DNA of 64,000 bases, taken from Sulfurivermis fontis (GTDB lineage Bacteria; Pseudomonadota; Gammaproteobacteria; Thiohalomonadales; Thiohalomonadaceae). A model generated the notes under the pieces. That model had not been told where the DNA came from and made no database searches. It worked only from the letters and a program-made list of their open reading frames with translations. The stretch spans positions 736,501 to 800,500 of the forward strand of contig NZ_AP018724.1 of assembly GCF_004001245.1 (NCBI RefSeq), in the 5' to 3' direction. Both the position numbers and the translations under genes were made by a program. How positions within the stretch are numbered: position 1 is the first letter of the stretch; each line of letters starts with the position of its first letter. This document shows, one piece after another, positions 4,762-35,086 of this stretch.

Positions 4762-4883
4762 GTTTCCCTCTCGCGCTCACCCGCGCGTGATTGAAGTGGG
4801 TGTAAACCCAGTGCGTGAGGGGGGGGAGAGTCGAGAGGTTCGGCTCGCCATGCCGCCCGCCGCAGCACTGGAACGTGACGCGT

Positions 4884-5085
4884 CAGGCCGGTCTCCGGGC
4901 TCGCGGTGTGGGACGTCATCCCCGGACAGGCCGCCTTCCCATGTCGTGCGACACAGTGGCACTGTGGCCCGCCCTCACCGCCTACCGTTGCGGGGGCAGC
5001 GCCGGAATTGCAGACCGGGAAGGTCTGCGCACCGGCTTCCCGTTTCATCCCCGCGGACGCTCGTCCGCGGGAACACCTGAAACGT
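4884..5085 (-). promoter_or_regulatory. cobalamin riboswitch
   Basis: On the minus strand, the 5' region of btuB holds the conserved adenosylcobalamin aptamer pieces in order: CAGGTGTTCCCGC, GGGATGAAACGGGAAGCCGG, GCTGCCCCCGCAACGGTAGG, a CATGGGAAGGCGGCC stretch and the B12 box GAGCCCGGAGACCGGCCTG at 4884-4902. The aptamer ends about 120 bases before the btuB start. Binding of adenosylcobalamin is expected to reduce expression of the whole operon. No other feature is seen in the rest of the 4762-5199 gap apart from the start region of tamA. Confidence 0.95.
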
Positions 5086-5199
5086 GGGCGCACTTTACGC
5101 GCCGCGGCCGGCGCCGGTCAAGACGATGCAGGGGCCGTGGCGCGCCCATCGCCGCTATGTTCTTGCTACGATAGGCAAACTTCCCGGCAGCGCTGACTC

Positions 5200-31577: not shown

Positions 31578-32387
31578 ATGATCGCCAAATCCCACCTGTC
31601 CCCCGCCGCGCTGGCCGGCCTGATTGGCCGCCGCACCCTGCAGTCGCTGCTGTACGTGGTGGACCTGACGGTGTTCGTGCTGTACGCCATGCGCAGCTGG
31701 GGCGGCCGCCGCGGCCTGTTCAACCGCGCCAGCTACCACGCCGTCATCGCGCAGATGATCTTCACCGGCATCGATGCCCTGTTGTCGGTCACCCTGCTCG
31801 GGCTGGCGGTGGGCGCCGGCATCACCGCCCAGTTGATCCTGCTGTTCCAGGTGGTCGGCAGCGAGGCCGACGTCATCAACGTGCTGACCAAGGTGGTGGC
31901 GCTGGAGCTGGCGCCGCTGCTCACCGCCATCATCGTCATCGGCCGCACCGGTTCGGCCATCGCCGTCGACCTCGGCAACATGAAACTGCACCGCGAGGTG
32001 GAGGGGCTGACCCTGCTCGGCATCGATGTGCAGGACTTCTTCATCAGCCCGCGCCTGGTGGGCGTGGCGCTGTCGCAGCTGATCCTGGCGGTCTATTTCG
32101 CGGTGATCGCCGTGGTCAGCGGCGTGTTCTTCAGCGCCCTGCTGGCGTCGTTCGGCTACCTCAAGTATCTGCTGGCGATCCCGCTGGCCTTCGACCCCGT
32201 CGCCCTGGTCGGTTTTGTCGTCAAGAACCTGATGTTCGGCCTGCTCATCGGCGGCAGCGCCTGTTATCACGGCCTGCGCGTCGGCATTTCGCCCACCGAG
32301 GTGCCGCAGGAGACGCAGCGCGCCATCGTCAACAGCCTGGTGCTGATCTTCCTGCTCGACGGCCTGATGGCGGTGACCCTGTTATGA
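31578..32387 (+). CDS. MlaE-family ABC permease of an MCE transport system
   Basis: A 269-residue membrane protein matching the MlaE/YrbE permease fold: several helices, the conserved central segment VTKVVALELAPLLTAIIVIGRTGSAIAVDLGNM (the ELAP...GR.GSAIAAELG signature) and GLTLLGIDVQDFFISPRLVG. It is the inner-membrane part of a lipid transporter that works with an MCE protein (33142-34161). Its stop overlaps the start of the next gene as ATGA, so the four genes to 35086 form one operon. Lipid type and direction of transport are unknown. Confidence 0.9.
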   Translation: MIAKSHLSPAALAGLIGRRTLQSLLYVVDLTVFVLYAMRSWGGRRGLFNRASYHAVIAQMIFTGIDALLSVTLLGLAVGAGITAQLILLFQVVGSEADVINVLTKVVALELAPLLTAIIVIGRTGSAIAVDLGNMKLHREVEGLTLLGIDVQDFFISPRLVGVALSQLILAVYFAVIAVVSGVFFSALLASFGYLKYLLAIPLAFDPVALVGFVVKNLMFGLLIGGSACYHGLRVGISPTEVPQETQRAIVNSLVLIFLLDGLMAVTLL

Positions 32388-33139
32388 GTGATGAGGTGCT
32401 GCTGCGGGCCGAGGGGCTGGTGCCGGCGGGGCTGGACGCGCCGCCGGCGCTCGATCTGGTCCTGAGCGGCGGGCTGGTGGTGCTGGCCGGTCCGGGGCGG
32501 GAGCGGCTCAGGGCCTGGCTGCATACCCTGGCCGGCCTGGCGCCGCCTGCCGCGGGCAACCTGCTGCTGCTGGGGCGGCCGCTGAACGGGACCGGGGCGC
32601 ACCGCTGGCAGCAGCTGCGCCGGCGCGTCGGCTATGTCAGTCCGGCGGTGCCCCTGCTGTCCATCATGAGCGGCCTGCGCAACGTGATGCTGCCGGCGCA
32701 TTACCACCGTCTGGCGCCGGAGCACGAGGTGGAGCGGCGGGCGCGGACACTGTTGGGCGAGATCGCCTATGATGCCGATCATGACACCCTGCCGGCGCAC
32801 ATGAGCGAGCTGCAGCGGCGCCATCTGCTCATCGCCCGCGCCCTGATCCTGGAACCGCGCGTGCTGCTGCTGGAGCAGCCGCTGGACGGCCTGGATGTGC
32901 CGGCGGCGGAAGCGTTACGCAATTATCTGGTAGAGAAGGTGCGGCCGCGGGTGGAGCTGCTGCTGGTGGCGGCCAATGACGCCCTGCTGGCGCGCCGGGC
33001 CGATGCGGTGTTGTTCGCCAGCCGGCAGAGCGTGCGCCTGTTCGACAGCTGGGCGGCATTGCTGGCCGACCAGGCCGCCGACGTGCAACGCTATCTGGAA
33101 ATGGAGCGCCGCCCCTGCGCGGCGCTGGAGCCGAACTGA
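32384..33139 (+). CDS. degenerate ABC ATPase-like protein of the MCE operon
   Basis: The 251-residue protein occupies the MlaF (ATPase) position and keeps the fold order of an ABC ATPase but has lost the catalytic motifs. The Walker A position reads LAGPGRERLRAW with no GKS/T; the Q-loop position reads GYVSPAVPLLSIMSG with Ser for Gln; the signature reads MSELQRRHLLIARAL instead of LSGGQ; Walker B reads RVLLLEQPLDGLD with Glu-Gln for Asp-Glu; and the switch position reads VAANDALLA with no His. It is unlikely to bind or hydrolyse ATP normally. The frame is intact and overlaps the permease by four bases, so it is probably a maintained structural subunit rather than a pseudogene. Confidence 0.85.
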   Translation: MSDEVLLRAEGLVPAGLDAPPALDLVLSGGLVVLAGPGRERLRAWLHTLAGLAPPAAGNLLLLGRPLNGTGAHRWQQLRRRVGYVSPAVPLLSIMSGLRNVMLPAHYHRLAPEHEVERRARTLLGEIAYDADHDTLPAHMSELQRRHLLIARALILEPRVLLLEQPLDGLDVPAAEALRNYLVEKVRPRVELLLVAANDALLARRADAVLFASRQSVRLFDSWAALLADQAADVQRYLEMERRPCAALEPN

Positions 33140-33141
33140 GC

Positions 33142-34161
33142 ATGGCCGAGCAACGCGTTCATTACATCCATCGCCTCAGCTACAGTGCGCGCGAGCGCCT
33201 GGTGGGCGTATTCGTGCTGGTGGCGCTGGCGGTGGTTTTCGGCCTGATCTTCGTCAACAGCCGTACCTCCCACTTGTTCGAGGAGCGTATCGGCTATCAC
33301 GCCTATCTGAAGAACGCCCAGGGCGTGAGCACCGAATCGGTGGTGAAGATCTCCGGCATCGAGGTGGGGCGCGTCTCCAGCATCGATATCGCGGCGGACA
33401 ACCGCGTGCACCTGGAGCTGTTCGTCTACAAGCGTTTCCAGAATCTGCTGCGCGCCGACTCGCGCGGCGCCCTGTCCAAGCTGTCGGTGCTGGGCAAGGC
33501 GGTGATCGACATCTCCGCCGGTTCGGTCAGTGCGCCGCTGCTGCCGGAAGGGGCGACCCTGCACATCGAGGAGCCCAAGTCGCTGGATGAGCTGATGGCC
33601 GACCTGACGCCGGTGCTGGAGAAGGTGAACCGGATCGTCGACGGCGTCGCCACCCTGGTGCAGGCGGTGGAGCCCGGTGATGTCGCCGCCACCTCGCGCG
33701 AGATGGCGCGTACCCTGGAGAGCCTGCGCGCGATCAGCGAGCAGATCGCCTCCGGCAAGGGGGCCGTCGGCCACGCGGTGTTCAACGCCGATACCGAGCG
33801 CCAGGTCAGCAGTTCGCTGGCGAGTCTGGAATCGCTGTTGCGCAAGGCCGACCAGCGCCTGAGCGAGATGGAGCCGCTGCTGGCCAATGCCGGCGCCATC
33901 ACCGCCGAGGGGCGCACCACCACGAAGGCGCTGTCCGGCCTGGTGGTGGAGGCGAAGGACCTGGTGAACCAGATGAACACCGCCATGGGCACGGTCAACG
34001 TCGAACTGCAGCAGCTGCCCGAACTGGTCAGCCGCATGAAGCTGCTGATGGACTCCACCGATCGCACCCTGCAGGGCATGCAGCGCATCTGGCCGCTGTC
34101 GGCCGCCGTGCCGGCAGACGGCGAGGAAACCCTGATCGAGGCCCAGCCGCGCAATGACTAG
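33142..34161 (+). CDS. MCE-domain protein (MlaD-like)
   Basis: A 339-residue protein with one N-terminal membrane anchor (about residues 20-38, RLVGVFVLVALAVVFGLIFV) and an MCE domain (HAYLKNAQGVSTESVVKISGIEVGRVSSI, then RADSRGALSKLSVLGKAVIDIS). A long periplasmic helical part follows, with repeated Leu and Ser (LESLRAISEQIASGKGAVGHAVF), similar to the tunnel-forming helices of other single-MCE proteins. It would form the hexameric lipid channel of this transporter. The gene ends eight bases inside the next one. Confidence 0.9.
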   Translation: MAEQRVHYIHRLSYSARERLVGVFVLVALAVVFGLIFVNSRTSHLFEERIGYHAYLKNAQGVSTESVVKISGIEVGRVSSIDIAADNRVHLELFVYKRFQNLLRADSRGALSKLSVLGKAVIDISAGSVSAPLLPEGATLHIEEPKSLDELMADLTPVLEKVNRIVDGVATLVQAVEPGDVAATSREMARTLESLRAISEQIASGKGAVGHAVFNADTERQVSSSLASLESLLRKADQRLSEMEPLLANAGAITAEGRTTTKALSGLVVEAKDLVNQMNTAMGTVNVELQQLPELVSRMKLLMDSTDRTLQGMQRIWPLSAAVPADGEETLIEAQPRND

Positions 34162-35086
34162 ACTCTGGCTCCTTCCCCTCGCCGCCGTCCTGCTCGCCGC
34201 CTGCGTCAGCGCCCCGGAGCAGCGCCCGGCGGCCCTGCTGCAGGGTGAGCGCATCCTGGCGATGGGCGTGCAGTCCTTCCGTGCCGATGACTATGCCAAT
34301 GCGGCGACCCATTTCACCCAGGCCCTGGCCCATTATCAGGGGCTGGACCATCAGGAGGGCATACTGCGCGCCCGCATCAACCTGGCCGAGACGGCGCTGG
34401 CGGTGGGCAATGCGGCGGCGGCCGAGCGTCATCTGCTGGCTGCCGCACCCCTGGCGGAGGGCGCGGCCGCGCAACGGGTGCAGTTGCTGCGTTCGTCGGT
34501 GGCCCTGCAGCAGGGGCGGTACGCGGCGGCAGTGGAGCTGCTGACACCGCTGCTGGCGGGAGCGCCTGGCAGCGAGACCGTCTATCGCAGCGCCCTGGCC
34601 AACCGCGCCGATGCCGCCCTGCTGGGCGGGGAGGCCGAGGCGGCCGCCTGGGTGGAGCGCTATGCCGCCGCCGTGGGCGGGGGCGCGGATGGATTTGCCG
34701 CGCGCCTGCACCGTTTCCGGGCCGAGCTGGCGCGCCGCGCCGGCGATCATGCCGCGGCCGCGGCGGCCCTGGAGCAGGCGCTGGCGCTGTACAAGGCCCT
34801 GCCGGATCGACCCGGCACCGCCGCCACCCTGGAGGCCTGGGGTGAGCTGCTGGCGGAGCAGCAGCAGTGGGAGGCGGCCGCCGATCGCCTGGAGCGCGCC
34901 CTGCACATCCGCCTGTGGCTGCTCTCGCGGCACCATAGCGCCGCCGACCTGCAGCGTCTCGCCGCCGTCAACGAGGCACGCGGCCAGCCGCAGCGGGCGG
35001 CGGCGCAGCGCCGCTGGGCGGAGATCGTGGCCGGTGATGGCCGTATCGACTGGGGCGCATTGCAGCGGGAAGTACTTCCCCAGTAA
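34154..35086 (+). CDS. TPR-repeat lipoprotein of the MCE operon
   Basis: A 310-residue protein with a lipoprotein signal peptide (MTRLWLLPLAAVLLAAC, lipobox LAAC) and tetratricopeptide-like helical repeats over the whole mature chain (for example DYANAATHFTQALAHYQ, GDHAAAAAALEQALALY and WEAAADRLERALHIRL). It should be attached to the outer or inner membrane by its lipid. Other MCE systems have an ABC_trans_aux lipoprotein in this position; here a TPR protein takes it. Overlap with the MCE gene suggests a joint function. Its binding partner is unknown. Confidence 0.85.
   Translation: MTRLWLLPLAAVLLAACVSAPEQRPAALLQGERILAMGVQSFRADDYANAATHFTQALAHYQGLDHQEGILRARINLAETALAVGNAAAAERHLLAAAPLAEGAAAQRVQLLRSSVALQQGRYAAAVELLTPLLAGAPGSETVYRSALANRADAALLGGEAEAAAWVERYAAAVGGGADGFAARLHRFRAELARRAGDHAAAAAALEQALALYKALPDRPGTAATLEAWGELLAEQQQWEAAADRLERALHIRLWLLSRHHSAADLQRLAAVNEARGQPQRAAAQRRWAEIVAGDGRIDWGALQREVLPQ

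Follow-up and report, generated by a model that had tools for sequence, protein, structure and literature searches.

A conserved MlaE–MCE operon with a degenerate ABC NBD in Sulfurivermis fontis and its relatives: a putative pseudo-ATPase scaffold

The window analysed here (the whole stretch of DNA, 64,000 nucleotides from Sulfurivermis fontis) carries on its + strand, at 31578–35086, a compact four-gene operon encoding an MlaE-family permease, an ABC NBD, an MCE protein and a TPR lipoprotein. The NBD is best described as a pseudo-ATPase scaffold, in which the catalytic residues have been lost while the fold and the predicted docking surface appear to be under selection; this role is well supported by sequence comparison and a structural model.

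The operon and the lost motifs of its NBD

The four genes are as follows.

31578..32387, + strand: MlaE-family permease, 269 aa, no fused STAS domain (PF02405, 1.6e-45)
32384..33139, + strand: degenerate ABC NBD (pseudo-ATPase), 251 aa (PF00005, 1.2e-9, above the curated cut-off)
33142..34161, + strand: MCE protein, 339 aa (PF02470, 2.1e-14; TIGR00996, 4.2e-22, below its cut-off)
34154..35086, + strand: TPR lipoprotein with lipobox LAAC and Val as the +2 residue (TPR_12, 1.3e-13)

The stop codon of the permease gene and the start codon of the NBD gene share the overlap ATGA, which recurs in three congeners and has a GTGA equivalent in the fourth. The MCE gene starts 2 bp past the NBD stop, and the start of the TPR gene overlaps the end of the MCE gene. 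An AmtB-like gene lies upstream of the operon, and miaB-like and other housekeeping genes lie downstream, as read from their translations. The solved structures matched by the permease profile are MlaE of P. aeruginosa, A. baumannii and E. coli and YrbE1A of Mce1. The MCE protein has one TM helix, a single MCE domain at about residues 52–127 and a long helical C-terminal part at about 148–315 (AlphaFold secondary structure); in the AlphaFold monomer the MCE domain is confident, the overall pLDDT is 64.5, and the helical part beyond the domain is of low confidence. The non-Asp residue at +2 of the TPR lipoprotein suggests that this protein may reside in the outer membrane. Pfam detected no STAS domain in any of the four proteins of the operon.

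The intact MlaF of the same genome was used as the motif-by-motif reference for the NBD, with ten positions scored. The alignment places the motif positions as follows.

32489..32512, + strand: Walker A remnant GPGRERLR (Lys and Ser/Thr lost)
32636..32650, + strand: Q-loop position VSPAV (Gln lost)
32798..32818, + strand: signature position HMSELQR (both Gly lost)
32861..32881, + strand: Walker B position VLLLEQP (Asp-Glu replaced by Glu-Gln)
32966..32980, + strand: switch (H-loop) position VAAND (His lost)

From MlaF to the window NBD, the Walker A motif changes from GPSGTGKTT to GPGRERLRA (Lys to Leu and Thr to Arg), the Q-loop from LFQSG to VSPAV, the signature from ELSGGMAR to HMSELQRR (with Ser retained and the two Gly gone), the Walker B motif from YDEP to LEQP (Asp to Glu and Glu to Gln) and the switch from VSHD to VAAN (His to Asn). 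Of the ten scored positions, just two are preserved, the D-loop Asp and the signature Ser. Judged by its motifs, the protein would not qualify as a functional ABC ATPase, as Walker A, Q-loop, LSGGQ, Walker B Glu and H-loop are all wanting. By descent it is an ABC NBD nonetheless, since PF00005 is matched by all 38 aligned members of its family, in addition to a fold match.

These results bear on a sequence-only reading made earlier of this DNA. Its claim that the Walker A Lys, Q-loop Gln, signature Gly pair, Walker B Asp-Glu and switch His are lost is borne out by the alignment to the same-genome MlaF, and the ATGA overlap and the 2 bp gap confirm that the frame is intact and coupled to the permease and MCE genes. 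The names it gave to the neighbours (permease, MCE, TPR lipoprotein) agree with the PF02405, PF02470 and TPR matches and with the LAAC lipobox.

Distribution of the family and graded loss of its motifs

Four congeners also carry the operon, their NBDs being at 82, 82, 71 and 55% identity. All five congeneric species are devoid of the Walker A Lys, the Q-loop Gln, the signature Gly pair and the switch His, and L036 alone among them retains the Walker B Asp. Intact motifs in close relatives, which the sequence-only reading had named as grounds for abandoning its interpretation, were not seen. Three further genera of the same family carry the operon at 34–38% identity. A permease-alignment scan of 84,980 GTDB species returned 24 loci, 23 of which are clear members by their permease, including the RefSeq isolate genomes of Aliidiomarina taiwanensis and A. 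celeris, Methylococcaceae MAGs, a symbiont MAG and relatives of Thiohalomonas. Even sampling of the class Gammaproteobacteria showed the subfamily in 8 of 368 other genomes (strict cut-off, home genome excluded); it occurs in 6/19 and 14/54 genomes of two further orders, and in 9/349 genomes of the order of G729. Judging by gene content, this last order is likely to be Burkholderiales, though this is a guess. The presence of the family is therefore patchy. Most relatives are MAGs and the collections are samples; relatives found in two collections were counted once where recognised.

Members were picked by permease profiles because the scores of NBD profiles do not discriminate, LolD and MlaF reaching ~95–99 bits, equal to distant members. 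A permease threshold of 1e-34 was too lax and was swamped by canonical MlaE. Among the listed class matches, the permease scores leave a gap between 2.4e-84 and 1e-58, and the examined matches at 1e-58 and weaker (L121–L141) have intact NBDs except L125, for which the Walker A pattern did not turn up. Permease matches from 7.5e-77 to 4e-60 in the order of G729 nevertheless include genuine members whose NBDs are dead, so the appropriate threshold depends on the lineage.

Chance or an assembly error at the window is ruled out by the five congeneric species, about 40 further loci, the two RefSeq isolate genomes and the single-contig home genome, and a frameshift or assembly artefact was rejected for the window NBD.

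The four-gene set can be split and rearranged, as seen in a MAG labelled Deltaproteobacteria (L056, 2055–6031), in which the permease and the dead NBD are on one strand and the MCE protein and TPR lipoprotein on the other. In G729 (L111, 3383–8337), a short dead NBD with no P-loop is followed by the MCE and TPR lipoprotein genes and then by a CHASE2/adenylate-cyclase-like gene before the MlaE permease; a cyclase within an MCE gene set is unusual. A symbiont MAG (L040, 2–984) has a second MlaE-like and MCE-like pair close upstream of its dead-NBD operon.

The loss of motifs is graded across the family. Both signature glycines are found in none of the 38 aligned NBDs, LSGGQ occurs in no member examined, and the Q-loop Gln is kept in a single aligned NBD (L042). 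In eight of the 38, the Walker A Lys and Ser/Thr, the Walker B Asp-Glu and the switch His are all kept; the remaining NBDs have lost further motifs, some of them all ten positions. These eight Walker-keeping members point to a stepwise decay in which two or more losses came late. In the permease tree, which has many open forks and long branches, they fall within the same weakly supported group (87/87) as the genus of the window; to fit the starred branches, the degenerate state must have changed at least twice, and by parsimony four times. Assuming that losses are irreversible, the simplest order would be that the signature and Q-loop went first and the Walker motifs later, repeatedly. Another partial decay is seen in the L105–L109 lineage, in which the Walker A Lys and the switch His are kept and the Walker B Asp-Glu is replaced by Asn-Asn. 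Shortened NBDs of ~200 aa in the order of G729 have no recognisable P-loop but mostly keep the motif of the predicted docking groove, in a GGLISNLKxWENxxLP-like form.

The nearest operons with the other permease type (frames of about 370–440 aa) have GxxGxGK[S/T], LSGGM and DEP intact in 20 of 21 cases. Judging from this length, the sister permeases probably carry an N-terminal STAS fusion. The permease–NBD order is kept in these STAS-MlaE-type operons, and an MCE gene was detected after it in most of them. The sequence-only reading is partly supported. Its structural part is right, as the subunit has lost its catalytic residues and is conserved together with the operon, but it missed the whole family and the graded decay, and the nearest intact relatives are the STAS-MlaE/ATPase/MCE operons rather than MlaFEDB. 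The graded series, running from intact sisters through members lacking signature and Q-loop and members lacking the Walker motifs to those with the P-loop missing, allows the order of loss to be read and tested.

Predicted fold, docking groove and selection

The AlphaFold model of the window NBD is a complete NBD with a pLDDT of 94.3 and a pTM of 0.90. Compared with MlaF (6xbd_I), it gives a Z of 25.5 and 2.1 Å over 237 residues, the best Z overall being 27.3. The coupling helix of an ABC transporter sits in a groove lined by the segment that follows the Q-loop. The coupling helix of MlaE is its contact with MlaF (PMC7790496). The corresponding stretch, with groove and docking surface assigned by homology, is the following.

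32651..32707, + strand: PLLSIMSGLRNVMLPAHYH, residues 90–108 of the window NBD, predicted coupling-helix groove, the top-conserved 19-residue stretch in degenerate members

Across the 30 degenerate members, this post-Q-loop groove ranks 1 of 225 windows in conservation (3.10 bits versus a mean of 2.16), and S93, N100, Y107 and H108 are invariant, whereas Walker A is below average, at rank 148 of 235. The 20 intact sister NBDs reverse the ranking, with Walker A at rank 8 and the groove 55th of 225. Given the conserved groove and the intact predicted fold, the protein looks like an NBD kept for docking rather than for catalysis. The proposal of the sequence-only reading that this subunit holds the complex together thus gains support from the extreme conservation of the predicted permease-docking stretch and from the intact predicted NBD fold.

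The dN/dS ratio was calculated by the Nei-Gojobori method for ten pairs within the genus, a simple method in which codon bias is uncorrected. The dead NBD gives 0.16–0.54, similar to its partner genes over the same pairs (permease 0.18–0.35, MCE 0.18–0.32, TPR 0.29–0.41), and the value for the pair of the window and L033 is 0.27 (95% CI 0.18–0.40, bootstrap). The intact MlaF of the same genomes gives 0.08–0.25. The NBD gene is under purifying selection, though the constraint is weaker than that on MlaF. Relaxed selection, the other outcome that would have told against the sequence-only reading, is not borne out, as the ratios are not near neutral. Decay restricted to the home genome is rejected by the losses shared among congeners together with these ratios.

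Possible mechanisms and comparison with known systems

Two open questions are touched by this system: by which route do phospholipids reach the outer membrane, and what is the power source of MCE systems? We propose, with somewhat better than balanced confidence, that the pseudo-ATPase acts as a clamp in an ATP-hydrolysis-independent trans-envelope lipid conduit. The NBD would retain its fold and permease-docking surface and could no longer hydrolyse ATP, to judge from its residues. By analogy with MlaF2E2D6, two NBD copies would clamp the cytoplasmic coupling helices of two MlaE-type permeases, which would be held in one conformation, most likely outward-open and lipid-filled. The MCE ring and its long helical needle would form a hydrophobic tunnel towards the outer-membrane TPR lipoprotein, and lipids would diffuse down their gradient, bridge-like, instead of being pumped. 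Dimerisation, the locked conformation, the tunnel, the lipid cargo and the passive flow are what we infer. The structure of MlaFEDB shows a path running without a break from the MlaE pocket, which is filled with lipid, through the channel of MlaD (PMC7790496), so that a permease locked open could feed an MCE tunnel passively. The passive lipid bridge suggested by the sequence-only reading is plausible, and unproven. As a counterpoint, nucleotide binding may still matter in the eight members whose Walker A, Walker B and switch His are intact.

How else could a permease with a dead NBD be powered? An intact ATPase from elsewhere, canonical MlaF or another NBD, might drive it with the dead NBD as adaptor or regulator. 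The home genome, a single 3.25 Mb contig, has two MCE loci, namely the window operon and one beside intact mlaF, mlaE, mlaD and a STAS protein; the cell thus possesses an ATPase of the appropriate family. However, this is the only clear MlaF in the genome, which rejects a hidden second copy, and the next match, at 36% identity, is about 6 kb away from the mla locus. In a mixed dimer, live Walker motifs would face a dead signature and dead Walker motifs a live one, so that neither composite site would be complete, and the dead NBD keeps its docking groove and would compete with a foreign ATPase for the same site. Recruitment of a separate ATPase, the other option of the sequence-only reading, is thereby weakened, the sole clear MlaF adjoining its own permease, and we regard it as quite unlikely. 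It is the lack of a second MlaF and of a complete site in the mixed dimer that places passive flow first. It is also unlikely, if a little less so, that proton motive force energises an active permease–MCE system in which the dead NBD is a scaffold. For PqiA, passive transport, an unidentified ATPase and proton motive force have all been discussed (PMC10897342), and the permease has the family-specific invariant acidic residues D66, D131 and E241. These residues would nevertheless lie at helix ends or in loops and not mid-membrane, as judged by eye, and no proton-path feature was found.

As a further alternative, the NBD might be a regulatory sensor, and not a motor, that takes up ATP or some other nucleotide in a non-canonical way. 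The eight members that have lost the signature and Q-loop but kept the Walker A Lys and Ser/Thr, Walker B Asp-Glu and switch His would suit such a sensor; in the window protein and its congeners, however, Walker A is gone as well, and its conservation is below average in degenerate members, which makes this reading distinctly improbable. Least probable of all, and already largely refuted, is that the gene is decaying towards loss. One relative (L010/L038, the same genome) has its NBD split over two overlapping frames in a MAG contig (L038, 5615–6534), either a sequencing error or an actual pseudogene, and the dN/dS of the dead NBD exceeds that of the intact MlaF of the genus. The ratio is, however, far below 1, the frame is open in 38 of 38 aligned members, operon coupling is kept, and the family spans several orders plus one MAG labelled Deltaproteobacteria.

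The clamped conduit that we favour resembles several known systems, each in part. With MlaFEDB of E. coli, P. aeruginosa and A. baumannii it shares an MlaE-type permease, an MlaF-like NBD fold (Z 25.5) and an MCE-domain protein. In MlaFEDB, however, MlaF has all catalytic motifs, the gene order is mlaF-E-D, MlaD is short (183 aa) and there is no TPR lipoprotein, whereas the window operon has the order permease-NBD-MCE-TPR, a dead NBD and no MlaB (STAS) partner within the operon. In the canonical mla locus of the home genome (L078, 3215–5767), the STAS (MlaB-like) protein seems to come directly after MlaD, with no obvious mlaC between them. Mpc of Brucella and Hyphomicrobiales (mpcEFDA) is a four-gene MCE operon with Mla and Pqi homologues that has been proposed to bridge two membranes (PMC12436622). 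Its order, inferred from the gene names as permease-ATPase-MCE-lipoprotein, is that of the window operon, and we read the same paper as describing MpcF as an active-type ATPase and MpcA as a PqiC-like lipoprotein (PMC12436622). The dead NBD and the TPR lipoprotein set the window system apart from Mpc, by description and not by sequence. Type I MCE genes are commonly preceded by permease and ATP-binding genes and have DUF330 lipoproteins encoded after them (PMC5561183); the window lipoprotein matches TPR families and not the PqiC-like (DUF330) type.

PqiABC and LetAB likewise carry out MCE transport without an ABC ATPase and bridge the envelope according to the literature. PqiA and LetA are, however, unrelated to ABC permeases, whereas the window system retains an ABC permease (PF02405) and a folded NBD, and its MCE protein has one MCE domain instead of several per chain. 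In Veillonella parvula MlaEFD, the MCE protein is longer than E. coli MlaD and has been proposed as a trans-envelope bridge without MlaA or MlaC; its MlaF closely resembles the model ones, and its MlaD bears an outer-membrane β-barrel (PMC10665443), for which no counterpart is predicted in the window MCE protein. Degenerate NBD motifs are shared with heterodimeric ABC transporters that have one degenerate site, such as TAP, BmrCD and MsRv1273c/72c. These keep one functional composite site, whereas the only NBD of the window operon has lost both halves.

The components are of known kinds, and Mpc, Pqi and Let precede this system in bridge architecture or in ATPase-free MCE transport. In the open-access papers searched, we found no report of a conserved lineage in which the only NBD is dead and a TPR lipoprotein is present, nor of an ABC transporter with a single kind of NBD in which neither half of the catalytic site survives. 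We put forward, tentatively and with less assurance than the conduit itself, that a lineage of ABC-derived lipid transporters gave up ATP hydrolysis, that a homodimeric pseudo-NBD locks the MlaE-type permease open, feeding the MCE tunnel and the TPR lipoprotein for a passive bulk flow of lipids, and that the family would show the steps from pump to bridge. A conserved ABC module with a fully dead motor amounts to a natural experiment, in which what the NBD does structurally can be told apart from what it does energetically; should the system prove to move lipids, the MlaE–MCE conduit would not depend on ATP hydrolysis. Elsewhere in the window, a cobalamin riboswitch was detected at 4869–5095 on the − strand (112.5 bits).
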